This document shows positions 844 through 12,628 of a DNA stretch of 22,314 bases, piece after piece. Source of the DNA: a virus; the IMG/VR virus record IMGVR_UViG_3300017706_001628, positions 1-22,314 of that record; one strand, 5' to 3'. A program made the position numbers and the translations under genes. Positions within the stretch are counted from its first letter, which is position 1. Every line of letters begins with the position of its first letter. A model generated the notes under the pieces. It was not told the DNA's origin, did no database searches, and was given only the letters and a program-made list of their open reading frames with translations.

Positions 844-1436
844 GCATCTTGTTCTATCTCAAGAGGTGGTACATCTTTTCTAGTTGCATTGACGGTGTAA
901 TAGCAGTCAATCGCAGCTGCATTCCCAGACTTGAGATAAATGGTTTTACCCCACTCAATTTTATCCACCATTAGATCCTGAGATGATCCAATTTGAGTGA
1001 CAGAAACTGTGATTGTAGTTGGATCAATCAATCCGTTCCAGTAATCAGGTAATATAATTCTATTATCTCCTGTTAGATGACCACGAACATAAACCCCATA
1101 TTCGGGACCTTCCAAACACCCGTGCCACAGTCTCTTTCCATCTTTAGTTGGGTGGGGGATATTGAATGCTTTAACAGTAGCATTTACCCCAGAGGTTGCG
1201 TTAATAGTTCCCGCAGTGATAGTCCCAGTTACACCCAAATCATTATTGACAGTTAAATTATCAATCTGTGCATTACCATGAACTAATCTACCACATGCAT
1301 CATCTGGGTAACTAGTATCATCTGTCCCTGCATATGCAATGTATTGCAAATTGGTTTTCTTAGATCCAGTTATATTACCACCGCAACTCTTAGTTGATTC
1401 TGGTTGGCCAGGTGGTACGAATTGTTCTGCTGCCAT
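840..1436 (-). CDS. Tail/virion structural protein, paralog A (198 aa)
   Basis: The C-terminal half (about residues 88-190) carries a signature known to me from cyanophage tail and fibre proteins: FNIPHPTKDGKRLWHGCLEGP, then VYVRGHL, ILPDYWNGLIDPTTITVSVT and IDCYYTVNATR. The N-terminal part has short beta repeats (DNLTVNNDLGVTGTITAGTI) that suggest a fibrous stalk. The 264-aa protein directly upstream shares the same C-terminal domain, so the pair is a tandem duplication. Its ATG overlaps the upstream stop by one base (TAATG), pointing to translational coupling. It is the last gene of the late operon. I infer a baseplate-distal fibre or spike-associated protein; the exact place in the virion is unknown. 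Confidence 0.75.
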   Translation of the reverse strand: MAAEQFVPPGQPESTKSCGGNITGSKKTNLQYIAYAGTDDTSYPDDACGRLVHGNAQIDNLTVNNDLGVTGTITAGTINATSGVNATVKAFNIPHPTKDGKRLWHGCLEGPEYGVYVRGHLTGDNRIILPDYWNGLIDPTTITVSVTQIGSSQDLMVDKIEWGKTIYLKSGNAAAIDCYYTVNATRKDVPPLEIEQDA

Positions 1437-2230
1437 TACTTAGTCTCCTTTACGTCATAGTGATATCCAGAGATAGAATACTGATCGTTATCTCCTGGGT
1501 AGTCTGCTGGAGAGTCTCCTTCATATTCAGAGATGAGTCTCTCACCATCTGCACGAGTTCCGAACACATGGTAGTAACAATCGATGGGTAATCCACCATT
1601 CGATTGTAAGTGAATCTTGTTCTCTCCGATTCTCTTTACGATGATGTGCTGATGAGCACCAATCGGTGTTAAGTTTACCGTGATTGTTGTTGGGTCAACC
1701 AATTTTTCCCAATATCCAGGGAGAACAATCTCAGTTTTATTTTTTACACGACCTCTAAAGTATACATCATTGGATGGACCTTCAGGACATGTATGTCTTA
1801 GACGATATCCATCTCGTGTTGGGTGAGGAATATCAAAGTTCTTCTTAGCAGACAGAATGTGTGCGCCACAGCGTGATTTTACTTCACCCTGAGCAGTGAT
1901 GTTTCCTCTTGCTAAAATATCAGATGAAACAAAAAGGTTTGCTTTGATTGCCGTGTTTCCTTTCACATACAACGATAAATTACTTGCCGGAACACCACAA
2001 ATAGATCCAGTAAGAGAACCCTTTGGTCCAGCATCTACTCTAGGACCAATCATCACTGTAGCAGATGGTGGAAATGGAAATCCAGTATCTCCTACATTCA
2101 ATGGACCTTGAATATAAGAAGATCCGATAATTTTTTGTGGCCCAATACCTAATGCTGTTGGTATAACATTCTCTGGACATACCAACAGTTGTCCATCGTA
2201 GATATGCCCTTCATCAAACTGAAATGCCAT
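1436..2230 (-). CDS. Tail/virion structural protein, paralog B (264 aa)
   Basis: It has the same domain as its downstream neighbour: FDIPHPTRDGYRLRHTCPEGP, VYFRGRV, VLPGYWEKLVDPTTITVNLT, then PIDCYYHVFGTRADGERL, here followed by an extra acidic tail (SEYEGDSPADYPGDNDQY). The N-terminal 120 residues include a Gly-rich stretch and a beta-repeat segment (GNTAIKANLFVSSDILARGN) similar to phage fibre shafts. No chaperone-type S74 peptidase domain is visible. Likely a trimeric fibre or baseplate-attached structural protein. It lies seven bases downstream of the beta-helical protein gene in the late operon. Confidence 0.78.
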   Translation of the reverse strand: MAFQFDEGHIYDGQLLVCPENVIPTALGIGPQKIIGSSYIQGPLNVGDTGFPFPPSATVMIGPRVDAGPKGSLTGSICGVPASNLSLYVKGNTAIKANLFVSSDILARGNITAQGEVKSRCGAHILSAKKNFDIPHPTRDGYRLRHTCPEGPSNDVYFRGRVKNKTEIVLPGYWEKLVDPTTITVNLTPIGAHQHIIVKRIGENKIHLQSNGGLPIDCYYHVFGTRADGERLISEYEGDSPADYPGDNDQYSISGYHYDVKETK

Positions 2231-2809: not shown

Positions 2810-2817
2810 TATTTATT
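2810..2817 (-). promoter_or_regulatory. Late promoter-like box (AATAAATA)
   Basis: The minus strand reads AATAAATA, matching the NATAAATA form of the T4-type late promoter. It is about 27 bases upstream of the ATG at 2783 and overlaps the stop region of the upstream structural gene. In T4 such boxes are used by host polymerase carrying gp55, with gp33 as co-activator. In AT-rich DNA an 8-base box can occur by chance, but position before a gene start supports it. Confidence 0.5.
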
Positions 2818-4045
2818 AGTAACCTCCATAGCCTCCGCCACCACCAGGTGATGGTGAAGGAGATGGACTTGGAGATGGACTTGGAGATGGTCCGGGAGAA
2901 GGTGTGGATGTAGGTGTTGTAGTTGTGGTCGTAGTTGCTCTCGCTGGTGCTGTTTGCCTACTTCCTGTTGATCTGGTTACAGTTGAAGTTGCTGTTGTTT
3001 GTTCTGCGGTTTGAACTTCCTCTGCGGTAGTTTCTGTCTGAGTAATCGTAGTTGTTACTCTTTCAGTAACACCTGTGACACTCTCTTGAAGAGTGTTATA
3101 AACTCTCACACCAGTATTTCTAACTCCAGCATATTTTACACCATTATCAAAGAATACATTACCATAGTAAGGTTTACCGTCAAGATATCCATTGATTTGT
3201 AGACCAACAAGGTCATAAACCTGAACAACTTCTCCTGGGCCTGCAACTTCAGGAACTAGTGGATCACGAATAACCTCAAACACTGGAATGAATTGTGCAT
3301 TTACACCTGTTTCGGTGTCCATAAAAATTGTTGGAAGACTTGTATAGTTTCCGCCAGTATTAACCTTTACAGAATTAATTTTTCCAAATGGATTACAATT
3401 ATATGTCAGAGTTGTTCCATTCTTAGGTTCAATCACTATCTGATCTACACCACAGTTGTGATTGATACCAGGATTTGTGACGATAACATCTGTTAATTTA
3501 ATCAATGCAGGATATTGAGGCACCGTTTGTCCTGGTGGAAGATATCCTGTTCCACTATCTCGAACTAAAACACGACGAACTCTACCAGTATTCTTTCCAT
3601 CCGAATTGAATAAAAGTTCCGTCTCTAATACCGCACCACTTCCATTGTTACATGGGTCAATAACTTGAATTCTTGGTGGACTTGTATATCCATATCCACC
3701 ATCGACGATATCAACAGCGATAATATTTCCCTCTAGGTCAATGATTGGGTTTGCTTTTGCTCCAATCCCACCACCACCAAAAACGTTGAGTGTTGGAGGT
3801 CCACATGGTTTTGGAGAGACATCACAAGGATCCTTCCTTTTTAAATCATTAGTGGTGAGAGCATTGATATCATTAATTGAAAGATATTTTACTTCATTAT
3901 CGCCATTAATAAACACAAATGTAGTCCCTGGAGACATTTTCTCATAATTATTTGCTTCTTCAATAGTAATTCCCTGAACATATCCGTCAAACTGACTAAT
4001 ATATCCAACTTTTATATTATCTCTTGATGGTGGTTGTATTGGCAT
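2816..4045 (-). CDS. Virion structural protein with GG-x-GY repeats and a Thr/Pro-Ser/Gly tail (409 aa)
   Basis: The central region repeats a beta motif: IVDGGYGYTSPPRIQV, VRDSGTGYLPPG and VNTGGNYTSLPTIFM. It is a motif I associate with cyanophage structural proteins. From about residue 325 the composition changes sharply to Thr-rich (TTTITQTETTAEE, TTTTTTTPT), then Pro-Ser repeats (PSPSPSPS), and ends in a Gly/Tyr cap. This tail looks like an extended, mucin-like linker. The start ATG at 4045 overlaps the gp5 stop (TAATG), so it is translationally coupled to gp5. I infer a baseplate or tail-tip protein; the precise role is unknown. Confidence 0.72.
   Translation of the reverse strand: MPIQPPSRDNIKVGYISQFDGYVQGITIEEANNYEKMSPGTTFVFINGDNEVKYLSINDINALTTNDLKRKDPCDVSPKPCGPPTLNVFGGGGIGAKANPIIDLEGNIIAVDIVDGGYGYTSPPRIQVIDPCNNGSGAVLETELLFNSDGKNTGRVRRVLVRDSGTGYLPPGQTVPQYPALIKLTDVIVTNPGINHNCGVDQIVIEPKNGTTLTYNCNPFGKINSVKVNTGGNYTSLPTIFMDTETGVNAQFIPVFEVIRDPLVPEVAGPGEVVQVYDLVGLQINGYLDGKPYYGNVFFDNGVKYAGVRNTGVRVYNTLQESVTGVTERVTTTITQTETTAEEVQTAEQTTATSTVTRSTGSRQTAPARATTTTTTTPTSTPSPGPSPSPSPSPSPSPSPGGGGGYGGY
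2859..2890 (-). repeat. 12-bp tandem repeat coding Pro-Ser
   Basis: The plus strand has GGAGATGGACTT twice in full and a further eight bases, about 2.7 units. On the coding strand it encodes the Pro-Ser run in the tail of the 409-aa protein. The exact units suggest recent slippage, so the length of the linker is likely to vary between relatives. Confidence 0.85.
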
Positions 4046-6303
4046 TATGTGCTTCCTCTCGATGTAATCGTTCCGATGGTATTTCCTTGTTCATCAATAA
4101 TTCTACCTTCTCTCACTGCTTGTCTTTCAGCATCAGTAACAGGTTTAGCTAAATCATTTCCAATATCATCTGTCTCTGGTGTTGGCTCTGGGTTTTCTGC
4201 TTGTGCTGCTGCATTATCAGCAACCTGATTTGGATTTGGTTTCTCTTCTCCAGGTTTACCACTGCCTCCATCTTGTAATGTATGTGTGTCGTTCGGAGAA
4301 CACATTGGTTTTGGATCACAATCGAAGAATTGAGTGATCGATGAAATAAATCCAAGTGATGCTGCGATATCTAGGTTTATACCACCCAGAGCACCAAGTC
4401 CTCCAGCAAGACCAGCGATTGCTCCACCACCAGTAATTGCTCCAAGTATTGCTGGATTTGCTCCGGCAAGAGGTCCTATAATTCCAACCAGTGAGTTAAG
4501 ATCTCCAGATGCGATAGCAGAGAATGCCTGTCCGTAAGCGGCCACTTGAGGACCAAAGAGTGATGTAATACCACCAACAACGTCTCCGCCATTGAGAATA
4601 TCAGTAGCGGTAAAAACTATTCCAGGATCAACTCCTGCCAAACCAGCAAGAGATGAAAGACCACCGATAACATCACCAGTTTGCAGAGCAGATGTTACAT
4701 CACCAATCAATCCAGGATCAACACCTAGTTGTTGTGCTAAAGCAGTTGATAATCCTCCGACTAAACCACCTGATGCCAGTGCAGCGGCAACGGCAGGGAC
4801 TGTGATGCCATTAGCAGAAGTGGTTGCTTGAGGAGACGATCCTGCTGCCTGAGTTCCTGCAGCAGAACCTGCACCAGATAAGGAAGTTGAAACTCTGTTA
4901 ATCATCGGTGCTATTGCAGTATCAACCGATGCCATGATTGTCCCTAGAGTTGATCCTAAAACTTCACCAACTAGTTCTTCAGTAGAACAGATTGGGTTTG
5001 GTGTGTAGTATCCTTCAGGTGGAAGTGGTGGAACATTAAAGTTGGGGTCAAATTCTGATACAGTTCCAACCTCAGGTGACGTGGAGTTTACCTCAGTAGG
5101 TGCCAATGAAGGAGCAGGTCCAACTGGAGGTGACGAATTTCCTTTTCTGCCAAGAATATTGAGAAGTGCTCCTAAGATCGTTCCAGCCAGTCCACCAACG
5201 ATACCATTGAAAGCACATACCAATCCTTCAAAACCCTTCACCAAATCATCTAAAAGTTGAATACGAATTGATGGCGGTGAAATCTTTAATAGAGGTCCAG
5301 CAATATCATTAATTTGTTCTGTTACAAAGTTTTGAACTTTGCCAAAAATTTTCTTCATGTGCTTTGAGATTTCTCCCGCTGCTTCACTCAGAATTTCATT
5401 TATGTCTTTGAACGCATTTTTGATTGGTAGAGAAACAGCACTTGTATACTGCTGCAGTGCTTTCTGTGCATCCTGCATTTTTTCAGTCATATTTTCAATG
5501 ACTGTTTGAATAGCAGTCATCTCTGAACTTTGTTCTGGATCAGGACATGCTAGAGCGTGCTTTCTTTTTAGAATTTTTTCTTTTTTATTATCCTCTGCTG
5601 TCTCTTGATGAATAGAATCAGAAGATTCTTTTGTTGGTAATGTGCCAGATGAGGGTTCTTCGGATGCTAACTCAGTATCAGCAACTTTCTTTGTGGTATC
5701 TTTATCTGCTCCCTTTGAATGATGACTTTGTGGAGTGAAGTTCTGGGCATCCGTGGATGCTTTAGTTTCCTGCTCCTTCTGCCATCTGTTTAATGCTTTT
5801 TGATAACGTTTGGCCCCAGATCTTGTGCTTGGAAAATTATCCCTACTAGGTCTCTCTGTATTTTGATTGACTGCAGCGACTGATCTGCCTCCTGGACCAC
5901 CAAGTCCAGTTTTAGTTTTTAATCTAGTGGTCGCATTATTTCCTAACACTCCCATGATGACAGGAACTTGACGATCCTGACTATCAAGGAAGAATCCAAA
6001 GACAAAATTACCTTGCTTAAGCGCAGGTGTTTGGAATGATCCACCCTGACCACCACCAGCGGTGATCGGATACATTACTTGCGCCCAAGGTAATTGTTCA
6101 GATTTAATTGACGATTCACCTTGATCGTGAATACCAATAATCCTTACTTTATATCTGTACCCCCAACCAGGGGTATCATTTTTACTCTTTGTCTTTCCGG
6201 CACTTATGTTTTCTCTCCAAGTAGAATCGTCAGCGATTTGACCAACCCACCAAAGAAAATTGCCCCCAAGAAATCCTGGATTAAATAGTGCTCCTCCTTC
6301 CAT
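4045..6303 (-). CDS. 5: Baseplate hub subunit, gp5-like, lacking the lysozyme domain (752 aa)
   Basis: The N-terminus (MEGGALFNPGFLGGNFLWWV) and an OB-fold stretch at about 46-121 (GWGYRYKVRIIGIHDQ, LPWAQVMYPI, GNFVFGFFLD, VPVIMGVLG) identify T4 gp5 / VgrG-type hub protein. It trimerises with gp27 at the tip of the tail tube. T4 gp5 carries a lysozyme domain after the OB fold; here residues 130-750 show instead a charged linker, a helical region (about 265-350) and a long Gly/Ala-rich part with repeats such as SLAGLAGVDPG and GVDPGLIGDV. I see neither a T4-lysozyme signature nor a C-terminal beta-helix. The C-terminus is DEQGNTIGTITSRGST. Both ends overlap neighbouring genes by one base (TAATG). 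Confidence 0.85.
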   Translation of the reverse strand: MEGGALFNPGFLGGNFLWWVGQIADDSTWRENISAGKTKSKNDTPGWGYRYKVRIIGIHDQGESSIKSEQLPWAQVMYPITAGGGQGGSFQTPALKQGNFVFGFFLDSQDRQVPVIMGVLGNNATTRLKTKTGLGGPGGRSVAAVNQNTERPSRDNFPSTRSGAKRYQKALNRWQKEQETKASTDAQNFTPQSHHSKGADKDTTKKVADTELASEEPSSGTLPTKESSDSIHQETAEDNKKEKILKRKHALACPDPEQSSEMTAIQTVIENMTEKMQDAQKALQQYTSAVSLPIKNAFKDINEILSEAAGEISKHMKKIFGKVQNFVTEQINDIAGPLLKISPPSIRIQLLDDLVKGFEGLVCAFNGIVGGLAGTILGALLNILGRKGNSSPPVGPAPSLAPTEVNSTSPEVGTVSEFDPNFNVPPLPPEGYYTPNPICSTEELVGEVLGSTLGTIMASVDTAIAPMINRVSTSLSGAGSAAGTQAAGSSPQATTSANGITVPAVAAALASGGLVGGLSTALAQQLGVDPGLIGDVTSALQTGDVIGGLSSLAGLAGVDPGIVFTATDILNGGDVVGGITSLFGPQVAAYGQAFSAIASGDLNSLVGIIGPLAGANPAILGAITGGGAIAGLAGGLGALGGINLDIAASLGFISSITQFFDCDPKPMCSPNDTHTLQDGGSGKPGEEKPNPNQVADNAAAQAENPEPTPETDDIGNDLAKPVTDAERQAVREGRIIDEQGNTIGTITSRGST

Positions 6304-6524
6304 TAATCCTCGTAAATTCTACATTCGTCTGTTTCTGGATTTTCATCACAATACATTTCAAGTGGGGTAGGATCATGGTCGTCGTTTGGATGCGATGCAT
6401 AATACAACTCTAGGTGATGCAACTCGTCTTCTGTATGACGGCGCATCTGTGGTGACAATGTTGGATTTTCCAGCAAATCTTTGTCATCATTAATATGTTG
6501 CTGAATACTTTTCTCTTTACTCAT
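6303..6524 (-). CDS. CP12-like small protein in the baseplate operon (73 aa)
   Basis: The last 21 residues (53-73; TPLEMYCDENPETDECRIY then ED) match the C-terminal motif of cyanobacterial CP12, including the redox pair C59 and C68 with eight residues between and the ECRIY ending. In CP12 this part binds GAPDH within the GAPDH-CP12-phosphoribulokinase complex that shuts down the Calvin cycle. The N-terminal Cys pair of full CP12 is absent. The first 50 residues are a charged helical segment (SPQMRRHTEDELHHLELYY). The gene sits between the hub genes 27 and 5, overlapping both (ATGA and TAATG), so it is expressed late with structural genes. A virion or assembly role is as possible as a metabolic one. 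Confidence 0.75.
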   Translation of the reverse strand: MSKEKSIQQHINDDKDLLENPTLSPQMRRHTEDELHHLELYYASHPNDDHDPTPLEMYCDENPETDECRIYED

Positions 6525-7863: not shown

Positions 7864-10059
7864 TTAAGCACCTTGATACAGAGTATCAAAAGATGAATTT
7901 TCTGTTCGACCAACTAGGACAGGGACAATAGATTTAGATCCAGATCCAGATGAACCACCTGACATCGCTGGCATTGGAACGACGACAGTTTCATCAGCAC
8001 CAGACTCATAGGAAGCATATGCTCTCAAAACATTTACTGCTTCTCTACCCTTTGCTTTGTTCAAATCATACAAGAATCCAGGAACTTGGGACTCAAGAGC
8101 TGCTGTAGAATCAGCATCAATGACAAATTCTCTTCCTTCTTCACCAAGGAGTGCTCTGTGTGTCATTGCTTTGGTAAATCCACCTCTTGCGTATGCAAGG
8201 TCTCCATGTCCTGTCATTGCAACCATCTTCCCTGATGAATCAAAAATTTCAGCACTCTTTCCATATCCACCATAAGCAGAACCAACTTTAGTTTCTCCAC
8301 CCATTTGTGGTAAGAGAATTTCTGCTCCCTCTGTTGATGAGTGATATAAATCTTTGTTAGCAGAAATATCTGGAATGTAATAATCAAATGGTTTAAATCC
8401 CTGCGCTCTCATAAAAGTAGAATGACTGTGAGCGTCTATGGCGCTGCTCAATAATCTCTTCTTCTCTCTAGAATCTAAGTCAGACTTATATGCTTTTAAT
8501 CTAGCATATCCCTGGCCAGAGAAAACCATCTCTTTATTTCTTGCAGTATAAGCATCAGCCATCTTATCCATAGCAGCAATCATCCCACTCATTCCTATGC
8601 TTTGATGGAACTTGGTATCAACGTGATATGCAGCACCCGCACCAATTCTATCATATCCAGCAGGTCCAGTTTGCATACCACCACCACTAGCACCTGTCAC
8701 ATTTGCACCAGAACCCTTTCCAATTCCATCTTCATCACCTCCCTTCAGTCCCATCATCGATTGACTACTTTTATCTGCTTTAGAACTACTCTTCTTATCA
8801 GAGTCTCCAAACAATCCACCAAATGCTCCCTCGCCACCAAAGTCACCAAGCATTCCAAAAGTAACAATTTCTAATCCTTGCCTTATCTGCTCTCTGATTC
8901 TTGCATCAAACTTGCCAAGATTCTTTCTTTGCTTTAACCTACCTTCGTCAGATAAGAATGGATATCTAATTAACTCAACTGCATATCTAAATGGTGCTCC
9001 AACAATATCAAGCAATGTTCCAACTGACAATAAATTATAATTTATAAATTGTGCCCCTCTGTAAAGAAGACCATCAATGACCTTTCTGGGATCACCTGGG
9101 ATCTTTTCTTCATATCTCTTCTTAGCACCCTCCTCTAACTCGGTTCCCATCTTCCTGAGTTGGAAAGCACCTTCACCAAGACCAGAAGCAAGAAGGCCAA
9201 CACCTGCAACAATACCAGCTGCGGCCGCACCACCACCAGTGACGAATCCTACGAGTGATTTTCCTGCACTGATAACTCCACTACCAATCTTTCCAGCAAC
9301 ACTAATAAGTCCACCAACACCCTGGAACTTAAGTATTGCTAAACATGCAATTAGAGTTGCATTTAAGAATGTATTTAAATGCTCCGAAAGTTCATCAAAT
9401 TTTTTGAGTCCATCCTCTCCAAAAGTATTTCCAACCCAACCTCTAAAGTTATCATACAAGGAATATCCCCAATCAATAAACGTCACTAACCCATTGAAAA
9501 TTGTACCTGCGATGTCCTCAATTGTTTGAACAACACCTTTCATGGTGTCCAAAAATCCTTCCAGTTTAGGAATGAGATCAACTGCTCTTACAGCAAGGAA
9601 ACCTAGCAGAGTATTTACTAGGAAGTTCATTATCCTGTCCATAAATGACAGTTGTTTGCCGCCGCCACCCCCTCCAGATTCTGTTTCCTTAGATTTCTTA
9701 GTTTCAAGTGCTGCTTCTCTTGCCCGTGCTTTTTGCTGTTGCTGCTGTCTTCTTCTTTGATCTGCTCTCATTTGGTCTAGAGCAAGAGATCCCTTTAAGA
9801 GAGTTTGAATTTTAGTTAATGACTGATTGATAGACTGAAGTGGATCTCCACTAACAGAAGTTGATGTGCTGATGGAAGATCTTGGTGCTGAAGGAGATGC
9901 TGTTGGTGAGGCAGAGGACATTGAAGTAGAGGATCCACTTCTACCAATTAGTTTATCTTTTGAAACTTTTGTAGTCTTTGCTTTTACTCTAGAAGTTATC
10001 TTCTTTGCTACAGCACCTTTTGCTGCTCTACCGCCAATTCTACCAAGTGCAGCTAACAT
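7864..10059 (-). CDS. Tape-measure-like tail protein, longer paralog (731 aa)
   Basis: Domain order: a basic N-terminus (1-40), a Ser-rich linker (41-72), an amphipathic helix with a Gln run (about 74-122), a Gly run (about 129-134), helices with membrane-like character (about 139-160, 230-295), a Gly-rich linker, and a C-terminal part with LLGEEGREFVID (637-648). The last motif resembles the VPAMLTAGEYVISK motif of the neighbouring 557-aa protein, and such motifs are common in phage tape measures. The order basic N-terminus, Gln-rich coiled coil, ARE-x-x-LE, hydrophobic helices, Gly linker and G-E-E/Y-V-I motif is shared by both proteins, so I read them as diverged paralogs. One or both may replace T4 gp29. 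Confidence 0.6.
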   Translation of the reverse strand: MLAALGRIGGRAAKGAVAKKITSRVKAKTTKVSKDKLIGRSGSSTSMSSASPTASPSAPRSSISTSTSVSGDPLQSINQSLTKIQTLLKGSLALDQMRADQRRRQQQQQKARAREAALETKKSKETESGGGGGGKQLSFMDRIMNFLVNTLLGFLAVRAVDLIPKLEGFLDTMKGVVQTIEDIAGTIFNGLVTFIDWGYSLYDNFRGWVGNTFGEDGLKKFDELSEHLNTFLNATLIACLAILKFQGVGGLISVAGKIGSGVISAGKSLVGFVTGGGAAAAGIVAGVGLLASGLGEGAFQLRKMGTELEEGAKKRYEEKIPGDPRKVIDGLLYRGAQFINYNLLSVGTLLDIVGAPFRYAVELIRYPFLSDEGRLKQRKNLGKFDARIREQIRQGLEIVTFGMLGDFGGEGAFGGLFGDSDKKSSSKADKSSQSMMGLKGGDEDGIGKGSGANVTGASGGGMQTGPAGYDRIGAGAAYHVDTKFHQSIGMSGMIAAMDKMADAYTARNKEMVFSGQGYARLKAYKSDLDSREKKRLLSSAIDAHSHSTFMRAQGFKPFDYYIPDISANKDLYHSSTEGAEILLPQMGGETKVGSAYGGYGKSAEIFDSSGKMVAMTGHGDLAYARGGFTKAMTHRALLGEEGREFVIDADSTAALESQVPGFLYDLNKAKGREAVNVLRAYASYESGADETVVVPMPAMSGGSSGSGSKSIVPVLVGRTENSSFDTLYQGA

Positions 10060-10060
10060 C

Positions 10061-11734
10061 TTATACTACGACCCCCAATGTTTGTGTCTTAGTTCTAGAT
10101 CCAGAAGTTGTAGCACTGAATGCAGGAGGTTTGCTTCCTAAGGTTTGCTCACCACCACTAGCATCTCCCCCTCCCTGTTGTGGTGCGGCAATGACAACAT
10201 TAGATTTCTTTGCCATTGGAGGATCAACTCTTGGTGCCTTATAATTTTGATTTGAACTCATTTGCATAGAATGTTCTTGACCATTATCAGGAGATCCTAC
10301 AAAATAATTTCTTACAGTTTTTGCAAAGTTTATCAAAGGCTCTATTTGTTTCTGACCAAACATACTAATCACATTGATAACCGGAGTTTCTGGTTTTCCA
10401 AAGTCTGATAAAGTAGGTCTCTCCATATCTTCTACTGGATCTGGAAGATTCTTTGGAACATGACCTCCCTCAGCAAACTTGAAATAAAAATGTTCTGCTT
10501 TTAGTGGAGTAACGGGCCCACCAGTTTTATAATACCTTGGTGTAACGAATCCACCAGTTTTGTAATGTCTAGGAGATGCTACATTAAAAGTTTTCTTAGG
10601 ATTTAAATTAAATACCATCCCACCAGTGGAATAATTTCCACCAGTTGGTTGACCACTACCACCACCAGCAGCATTCAGTGATGCAAACATTCCAGAACCA
10701 AACTTGTCTACAGCACCCTTACTGATGACATATTCACCAGCGGTTAGCATTGCAGGCACATTATCGATACCACCAGGTCCTTTGACCATACCACCTGTTG
10801 CCAATTTGGCGGGAGGTTTTTCGGGCGTTTCACCTGGTCCTGATAGTTCAGATGTTTTTTGTTGAATTGCTGCTAGATCTGGTGAAGGAATTTCATTTGA
10901 ATCTTTTGGAGCACCTATTTTTTTCTCTGAATCCTCTGTTGCTTTCTTTGCTTCCTTTACACCTTTTTCTACATCATTTCCAAATCCAAATATTTTCTTG
11001 GTTGCATCAACGAGTTTTGGAATGAATCCAATTGCTAGTGCAGTAATGCCTATGATCAAACCAGCAGGACCAAGAAGTGCTCCTCCAAATAAAATCAAAC
11101 CTGCAAGGAGGGTTGGCCACCAATCCTTAATGAACCTGAATATTGATTCTATTTTCCCTTTATTTTCATCATCCTGGAACCACTCGAACATTTTAAATAT
11201 TGCTCTACCAAGAACAACATTTACTATAAAATTGAACAGTTTTTCAAACATGCCCTTTACAGGACTTGCAATTTTTTCTGCTGTACCTTTAATTGCATCT
11301 AAAGCACCACCACCGGCTTCCAGCATTTTTTCTCTGGCGGTTGCTTTCTTTTTCTGTTGTTGCTGTCCACTCTGAGTTGCTTGACCTCTATCAAACTTCT
11401 GCTGTTGCTCTAATGTAGATGCTATTGATTGAACTTTACCTGCGATCTCAGTAAAAACTACACTATTATTCTGTGTCTTTAATTTATCTGCAACATTTTT
11501 TCTATTGGCCTGTATTATATTTTTAATTCTAGTAATCTTTTCTGCATTTACCTTTGTCGCCTTCTCATTCTCATTTACTTTAACACGGGTAGTTCTAAGA
11601 ATGCGAGAGAGTTTACCAATCTTTGACTCTCCTCCCATTCCACCCAAATTAGATCCACCACTATCCCTACCCGTCAATTTTGATGCGGATATTGTTGTAG
11701 ATCTAGTTTGTGGTGTACTTACCGTATCATCCAT
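10061..11734 (-). CDS. Tape-measure-like tail protein, shorter paralog (557 aa)
   Basis: An N-terminal charged coiled coil (about 40-130, with QQQQKKKATAREKMLE) is followed by a helix (about 160-185) and a strong hydrophobic segment (206-238, LLAGLILFGGALLGPAGLII). A C-terminal Gly-rich part carries GGIDNVPAMLTAGEYVISK (about 321-339), a motif typical of siphophage and myophage tape-measure proteins. At 557 aa it is close to T4 gp29 (590 aa). It starts eight bases inside the small frameshift ORF (ATGGATGA overlap), directly downstream of the gp26 chaperone, the place a tape measure occupies in lambda-like tail operons. Three GG-FVTPRYYKTGG-like repeats lie at about 365-410. Confidence 0.62.
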   Translation of the reverse strand: MDDTVSTPQTRSTTISASKLTGRDSGGSNLGGMGGESKIGKLSRILRTTRVKVNENEKATKVNAEKITRIKNIIQANRKNVADKLKTQNNSVVFTEIAGKVQSIASTLEQQQKFDRGQATQSGQQQQKKKATAREKMLEAGGGALDAIKGTAEKIASPVKGMFEKLFNFIVNVVLGRAIFKMFEWFQDDENKGKIESIFRFIKDWWPTLLAGLILFGGALLGPAGLIIGITALAIGFIPKLVDATKKIFGFGNDVEKGVKEAKKATEDSEKKIGAPKDSNEIPSPDLAAIQQKTSELSGPGETPEKPPAKLATGGMVKGPGGIDNVPAMLTAGEYVISKGAVDKFGSGMFASLNAAGGGSGQPTGGNYSTGGMVFNLNPKKTFNVASPRHYKTGGFVTPRYYKTGGPVTPLKAEHFYFKFAEGGHVPKNLPDPVEDMERPTLSDFGKPETPVINVISMFGQKQIEPLINFAKTVRNYFVGSPDNGQEHSMQMSSNQNYKAPRVDPPMAKKSNVVIAAPQQGGGDASGGEQTLGSKPPAFSATTSGSRTKTQTLGVVV

Positions 11735-11897
11735 TAGATGCTTGCTGTTGTTTTAGTTTTTCTTCCTCAAGATGTTGCTGCAGCAACCCGACATAAATGT
11801 CTCTTTCCCAAGGCATCCAATTTTCAATCTCGGTTAAACTATATTTATGGTACTGTACCAAGGCAAAATTAAGTCGGAAATAATTTTCCAGATCCAT
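11727..11897 (-). CDS. Small -1 frame ORF downstream of gp26 (56 aa; likely C-terminal extension of gp26)
   Basis: This open frame begins MDLENYFRLNFALVQYHKYS and ends LKQQQASNG. It is in the -1 frame relative to gp26, and the frame is open right back to the slippery site at 11915-11921. Slippage would give a 300-aa product: 238 residues of gp26, six linker residues (RLGMIH) and these 56 residues. There is no convincing Shine-Dalgarno before the ATGs at 11906 or 11897, which favours expression by frameshifting, though reinitiation after the gp26 stop is possible. By position it matches lambda T in the G/GT pair, which loads the tape measure. T4 gp51 lies at the same place, but I cannot show homology. 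Confidence 0.7.
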   Translation of the reverse strand: MDLENYFRLNFALVQYHKYSLTEIENWMPWERDIYVGLLQQHLEEEKLKQQQASNG

Positions 11898-11921
11898 ATG
11901 GATCATGCCTAGGCGAAAAAA
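11891..11921 (-). promoter_or_regulatory. Predicted -1 programmed frameshift site (T TTT TTC plus hairpin)
   Basis: Near the 3' end of gp26 the minus strand reads AG-T-TTT-TTC-GCC-TAG in the gp26 frame. T TTT TTC (11915-11921) is a canonical X XXY YYZ heptamer in the correct phase, one codon before the stop. Ten bases further on is the perfect palindrome GATCCATATGGATC (11891-11904), which can form a 5-bp stem with loop ATAT and could act as stimulator. The spacing is slightly long against the usual 5-9 bases and the stem is short, so efficiency is uncertain. Confidence 0.7.
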
Positions 11922-12628
11922 CTTGCTAGTCCCTCAATTACAACATCATTTTCCTTTTTAGTATTAGGATTTTTAACTTTAACCGTGTGAGATAATTTAG
12001 GCATAGTCTCAAAGAATTTCTCAATATCTTTGAACTGAGAGGAGTTCATAGATTCTAAGAATTCATTCAACTCTTTTTTAGTACAATCAGCAGCTACCCA
12101 AACTTCATCCTCAGTGAAGATCGTACCAATGCAGGATGCGATCAGCTCAAATGATTGGTCCATTGCACTTTGTTCTTTAAGATCAAAGTTGTTCTTAATG
12201 AACTCATCAAGAGATGGATACTTCATCTCCATCATGATTGAACCATCAAGTTCAATTCTGTTTGAGTGGTTATCACTTCTCTTCACCTTAATATCATCAA
12301 GGTTAATAGTAACTGCTACTTGTGTCTCCCCATCATCTGGACAGATGAGATTAACTTCAAGTTCTTCACCAACAGACTTACCACGAATGTTAAGGAACAA
12401 GTATTCAATATCAAACGTAGGGAGTTGTTCTACCTTGATACCTTTAGTAAGAATACAGTTTTTGATAACAGCTCTGATTGCTGTTGAGATCTGTTTTGTG
12501 TCCTCACTCTCCAGTGCGATAACAAGTAACTTCTCCTCTTTTACAAGAAACGGTCTGTACTTAATCGTTTCTCCTGTTGATGGCAACTCAAGTTCATATG
12601 TAGGAGTCGCAATTTTTGGTAAAGGCAT
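11909..12628 (-). CDS. 26: Baseplate hub assembly chaperone gp26 (239 aa)
   Basis: The N-terminus MPLPKIATPTYELELPSTGE and the following KYRPFLVKEEKLLVIALESE are the hallmark of the T4 gp26 family. The rest is a soluble, mainly helical acidic protein of usual length (T4: 208 aa). In T4, gp26 is needed for hub assembly. Its position just before tape-measure-like genes, and its -1 frame extension, suggest it is the equivalent of the lambda gpG tail chaperone. The ATG at 12628 has no strong Shine-Dalgarno. A late-type box (AATAAATA) lies 28 bases upstream. The last codons SFFA contain the slippery run. Confidence 0.88.
   Translation of the reverse strand: MPLPKIATPTYELELPSTGETIKYRPFLVKEEKLLVIALESEDTKQISTAIRAVIKNCILTKGIKVEQLPTFDIEYLFLNIRGKSVGEELEVNLICPDDGETQVAVTINLDDIKVKRSDNHSNRIELDGSIMMEMKYPSLDEFIKNNFDLKEQSAMDQSFELIASCIGTIFTEDEVWVAADCTKKELNEFLESMNSSQFKDIEKFFETMPKLSHTVKVKNPNTKKENDVVIEGLASFFA

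Follow-up and report, generated by a model that had tools for sequence, protein, structure and literature searches.

The DNA analysed here, from a virus of marine cyanobacteria (22,314 nucleotides in all, hereafter the window), carries a gp26 gene followed, in the -1 frame, by a small reading frame homologous to gp51, and the question is how this second frame is expressed: as a gene of its own, or as a C-terminal extension added to gp26 by ribosomes that change frame. Both gene names come from the annotation of the same pair of reading frames in cultured cyanophages. The features of the locus that bear on the question are the following.

11909-12628, minus strand: gp26, putative short chaperone form (TAC-N, 239 aa; PF12322 T4_baseplate, E 8e-77; phrog_150, E 1e-82)
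11931-11935, minus strand: Shine-Dalgarno-like (SD-like) element GAGGG, 9 nt 5' of the heptamer (GAG-GGN or GAA-GGG in 127/132 relatives)
11915-11921, minus strand: predicted slippery heptamer T_TTT_TTC in the gp26 phase (kept in 132/132 relatives, codon entropy zero, 0 changes on the tree)
11909-11911, minus strand: TAG stop of gp26 in the 0 frame, one codon past the heptamer (read from the sequence; distance to the heptamer constant in 132/132)
11891-11904, minus strand: hairpin 3' of the heptamer, with 5 bp, an ATAT loop and a 10-nt spacer (codon-preserving shuffles, covariation)
11727-11915, minus strand: predicted -1 frame extension (TAC-C, the gp51 homologue) of 62 post-slip codons and a stop (phrog_634, E 2e-27)
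10061-11734, minus strand: 557-aa protein, candidate tape measure or chaperone client (position, partial phrog_3547 match)
7864-10059, minus strand: 731-aa protein, second candidate client (position only; phrog_35997, of unknown function)

On the minus strand, gp26 ends with AGT TTT TTC GCC TAG. The initial annotation had placed a T TTT TTC heptamer in phase with gp26, one codon ahead of the stop, and these coordinates (11921-11915) are correct, as is the perfect palindrome GATCCATATGGATC at 11891-11904. It had also described the -1 frame as open beyond the heptamer, and this frame indeed continues as CGC CTA GGC ATG ATC CAT ATG GAT (SFF-RLGMIHMD at the junction) until the stop ending at 11727, which yields a fusion of 238 + 62 = 300 aa. 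The -1 ORF exists as described, but it is not anonymous: its 59 aa are homologous to gp51, the 'baseplate hub assembly catalyst'. A profile search detected a single PF12322 gene in this 22-kb fragment, and the 557-aa gene lies directly 3' of TAC-C, its start overlapping the TAC-C stop.

Taken as a bare 7-mer, TTTTTTC is unremarkable, with 15 occurrences in the window for 12 expected. As the bare heptamer is common in this AT-rich window, the significance of the gp26 site rests on its conservation. We collected 157 IMG/VR loci with both gp26 and gp51 parts (window included), and compared a non-redundant set of 132 cyanophage-type gp26 genes sharing less than 93% of their nucleotides (median pairwise identity 73%). 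TTTTTTC precedes the gp26 stop in all 157 loci, and gp51 lies in the -1 frame in 156 of them. The initial annotation had reasoned that conservation of an in-phase X_XXY_YYZ site and of the -1 ORF would favour frameshifting, and both are conserved. It had also held that a relative with a broken heptamer or another relative frame would speak against it; no cyanophage-type locus has a broken heptamer, and we attribute the displaced gp51 frame of one locus (L122) to an indel in the contig. The canonical heptamer is missing from Kuttervirus and Vibrio phage K447, which lie outside the cyanophages and retain the -1 arrangement.

In the non-redundant set, the Phe codon pair is TTT and then TTC in every gene, and the spacing between heptamer and stop is invariant. 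The second Phe codon shows 0 parsimony changes on a gp26 tree of length 28.7; among the ten further conserved Phe columns, six show 27-42. The codon preceding the heptamer changed 25 times among TCT, AGT, GCT, GGT and GAT, and its last base is T throughout. Nowhere else in gp26 do more than 24 of the 132 sequences have a slippery-type heptamer in this phase. The phase, position and conservation of the heptamer are thus beyond chance. Could the two Phe codons owe their conservation to constraints on the protein or on local codon use, with no recoding involved? Phe column 211 is likewise almost invariantly TTT, which such an explanation would accommodate. It does not account for column 243, which is all TTC although about 73% of gp26 Phe codons elsewhere are TTT, nor for a wobble base that remains T across five different preceding codons, nor for the non-slippery TTC TTT that encodes Phe-Phe in T4 and two relatives; we therefore give it hardly any credence.

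The heptamer does not stand alone. An SD-like sequence, GAGGG or GAAGGG, lies 9-10 nt 5' of it and is encoded by a Glu-Gly codon pair. Among the 132 relatives, pairing with the anti-SD exceeds the synonymous background (z = -10.8), and the strongest anti-SD windows within gp26 coincide with this site, which ranks first. The sequence comparison thus indicates that the element is maintained via synonymous codon choice. On the 3' side, the hairpin stem has a fold energy of -6.3 to -6.9 kcal/mol. RNAalifold, applied to the full alignment, did not arrive at a consensus structure, because the register of the stem varies, and we consequently folded each sequence separately and compared 129 relatives with shuffles that left the encoded protein of every sequence and the codon usage of every column unchanged. 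The mean stem energy is -6.3 kcal/mol, versus -4.4 kcal/mol in the shuffles (z = -10), with z = 0.08 in a control stretch. Both this z-score and that of the SD-like element assume independent relatives and thus overstate significance, the zero-result control stretch from the same relatives being a better guide. In some relatives the hairpin is weak or its register is different, and in 36 of the 129 it is no more stable than in their own shuffles. Stem pair 20-27 is the strongest covarying pair when neighbouring positions are excluded, and it couples a wobble base with an Asp/Asn/Ser change.

These flanking signals also bear on the possibility that RNA polymerase, instead of the ribosome, slips on the T6 run and adds a base that joins the two frames. 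A homopolymer run does exist, and it is extended to T7 in four lineages. Six bases are nevertheless short for polymerase slippage, the run is exactly T6C with a constant codon phase across the 132 cyanophage-type genes, and an SD-like element and a hairpin on either side are stimulators of ribosomal frameshifting. Transcriptional slippage is thus a very improbable explanation of the locus.

The remaining alternative is that gp51 is a small gene in its own right, expressed by termination-reinitiation or from a separate start (ATG at 11906 or 11897), the heptamer being incidental. Several observations are in its favour: an in-frame ATG occurs near the TAC-C start in 129 of the 132 relatives, gp51 is annotated separately in sequence records, and there are stop-start overlaps outside the cyanophage set (TAATG in phages CZ01 and K447, TGATG in Mendera). 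Yet an SD-like site precedes the first TAC-C ATG in only 1 of the 129 relatives, for 61 of 132 before gp26 itself, and the start codon is missing in some relatives: we found none in the junction region of L049 and P-HM2, and only GTG/TTG in that of L025. In P-HM2, the annotated gp51 is only 30 codons long, while the -1 frame is open far further upstream and lacks a start codon where one is normally found. Furthermore, an independent gene would leave unexplained both the invariant TTTTTTC and an SD-like element about 25 nt from the ATG, the hairpin would enclose its start, and the heptamer is lost precisely where a full-length gp51 gene occurs. We consider this explanation very unlikely, although some free gp51 may be made by independent initiation. 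As regards the records themselves, the gp51 domain is unannotated in KJ019054, NC_031935, NC_020837 and other cyanophage records, and the P-HM2 feature is shortened; such missing or shortened annotations are consistent with an absent start site. Most likely, what is annotated as gp51 in cyanophages does not constitute a gene of its own.

The comparison with T4 provides an independent view of the locus. T4 gp51 (249 aa) combines PF12322 (E 8e-55) and the phrog_634 domain in a single frame. The profile alignment of cyanophage gp26 with T4 gp51 extends to the junction (E 5e-8), and the -1 ORF aligns with the remaining C-terminal tail of T4 gp51 (hhalign, E 5e-8). On this sequence evidence, T4 gp51 is the in-frame equivalent of the predicted gp26 fusion. 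T4 gp26 and gp51, known as 'hub subunit' and 'hub assembly catalyst', would then respectively be the short and the long version of a single tail chaperone.

The distribution of the two arrangements amounts to a replacement experiment performed by nature: wherever a second full-length gene occurs, the slippery site is missing. T4-type genomes have two PF12322 genes, while there is one in each of the complete genomes of cyanophages S-PM2, P-SSM2, P-HM2 and MC09. The heptamer is absent from all eight lineages with two PF12322 genes (T4, Mosigvirus, Hadassahvirus, Tulanevirus, Bragavirus, Jiaodavirus, Pseudotevenvirus and Slopekvirus). Conversely, the C-domain lies in the -1 frame in 16 of 16 genomes with a single PF12322 gene (judged by the open -1 frame only in Phosso and K447, where phrog_634 is unmatched, and with weak matches in Mendera, E 0.008, and Kuttervirus, E 9e-4). 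Fourteen of these genomes have T_TTT_TTC or T_TTT_TTT: the four cyanophages, Cronobacter S13, Stenotrophomonas Mendera, Vibrio CZ01, Vibrio VH7D, Aeromonas AsFcp_1, Sinorhizobium Phosso, Sinorhizobium phiM19, Melnitz, HTVC008M and Ochrobactrum OC.

The other two genomes point to a possible -1 shift at a non-canonical site. Kuttervirus (L185-L202, L166, L176) has a conserved R_ATT_TTC_AT(T/C)_TAA with the C-domain in the -1 frame, and in many of its genomes a conserved C-domain block has no preceding start codon. Similarly, Vibrio phage K447 (L164) has A_CTT_TTC_AAG_TAA, also with the C-domain in the -1 frame; no relatives of its gp26 were found among viral contigs. At such sites, a single tRNA-Phe would re-pair well, from TTC to TTT within R_ATT_TTC or A_CTT_TTC. 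We tentatively suggest, as a scheme somewhat less probable than its opposite, that one chaperone pair is expressed in three modes: by a tandem-slip heptamer, which cyanophages combine with an SD-like element and a hairpin and which also occurs in other groups; by two paralogous genes, as in T4; and, in Kuttervirus and Vibrio K447, by a -1 shift of the non-canonical kind.

The claim of the initial annotation that gp26 undergoes -1 programmed frameshifting by analogy with lambda G/GT is strongly supported by comparative evidence from the heptamer, the frame, the SD-like element, the hairpin and T4 gp51. We thus consider it very probable (probability of about 0.92) that gp26 encodes tail assembly chaperones of two lengths, a short and a long one, by way of -1 programmed ribosomal frameshifting. 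The slippage itself and its efficiency are inferences. In this model, the majority of ribosomes would terminate at the TAG and release the 239-aa short form, and some would slip on U_UUU_UUC, where tRNA-Phe would re-pair from UUU-UUC to UUU-UUU, aided by the SD-like element upstream and the hairpin downstream. Slipped ribosomes would produce the long form of about 300 aa, with the gp51 domain. The two forms would probably cooperate in the manner of lambda gpG and gpGT, keeping a tape-measure or hub protein encoded downstream competent for assembly.

A chaperone role fits the position of the gene before large tail proteins, and the 557-aa and/or 731-aa protein is a candidate client. The 557-aa protein matches phrog_3547 ('tail length tape measure') with E 3e-5 over part of its length only, and in HTVC008M the annotated tape measure lies two genes downstream. 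The AlphaFold model of gp26 is confident (pLDDT 86), and its most probable PDB match in Foldseek is the HK97 tail assembly chaperone 2OB9 (probability 0.75, TMt 0.42), with a non-significant E of 0.86. A fold search with the T4 gp51-type model returned nothing relevant, 2OB9 being absent among the 50 matches listed, and a sequence search for relatives of solved structure returned none that were relevant.

Other genes of the window deserve mention. Between tail genes lies a CP12-domain gene (6303-6524, minus strand; PF02672, E 1e-13), encoding a Calvin-cycle regulator, which fits a cyanobacterial host. The adjacent ORFs 840-1436 and 1436-2230 (minus strand) have a repeated stretch in common (F-IPHPT-DG-RL-H-C-EGP...) and look like paralogous fibre or tail proteins. 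A 409-aa ORF (2816-4045, minus strand) ends with a Pro-Ser repeat and a Gly-rich tail.

Tail assembly chaperones of T4-like phages were identified in a 2022 paper by Vladimirov, Gautam and Davidson (Virology 566:9-15), whose abstract reportedly points to genes 26 and 51 and to frameshifts in several T4-like groups. The statement of the initial annotation that no such report was known for T4-like phages is contradicted by that work (Vladimirov, Gautam & Davidson, Virology 2022), and the concept of a frameshifted chaperone is thus already known for these phages. According to the account given with PRFect (PMC10885494), Vladimirov et al. 2022 describe some T4-like phages in which the short and the long chaperone have a gene each, in place of frameshifting; as cited in PMC12846349, the same study is the source for poly-T slippery sequences in T4-like TAC-N genes. 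In the searchable literature (most subscription journals being outside the search), we found no report of the cyanophage frameshift, of the SD-like element or of the hairpin. These flanking signals and the non-canonical Kuttervirus site may therefore be new details. The concept itself being published, what is added here is breadth (132 non-redundant genes) and a three-part signal.

How does the window compare with known systems? The -1 signal of E. coli dnaX consists of an SD-like element about 10 nt upstream, the slippery heptamer A_AAA_AAG and a downstream hairpin. The layout is common to both, with an upstream SD-like element and a downstream stem that are both under selection in gp26, but the window has U_UUU_UUC, and its frameshift product would be extended, whereas that of dnaX is shortened. 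The slippery sequence of lambda is G_GGA_AAG. With lambda gpG/gpGT (Xu, Hendrix & Duda 2004), the window shares an in-phase X_XXY_YYZ near the end of the first ORF and a second ORF in the -1 frame, but no sequence homology of gp26 to the lambda proteins emerged here, its slippery sequence is different, and it has a 239-aa N domain of the T4_baseplate family in a phage with a contractile, T4-like tail. For the TAC locus of Pseudomonas phage Adele and Vandenendeviridae (PMC12846349), a similar inference was drawn from a -1 ORF open in all genomes and a conserved poly-T motif, although in another phage family and with GTTTTT as the motif. Finally, the closest likeness in genes is with the T4-like chaperones of Vladimirov et al. 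2022, which, as far as the secondary accounts of that study go, have in common with the window genes 26 and 51, the short/long logic and a poly-T slippery site. The window also has what characterizes this class, namely a TAC-N family member, TAC-C homology and one gene with a frameshift signal; in T4's own group the two forms are separate genes, whereas the window has one gene and a heptamer.
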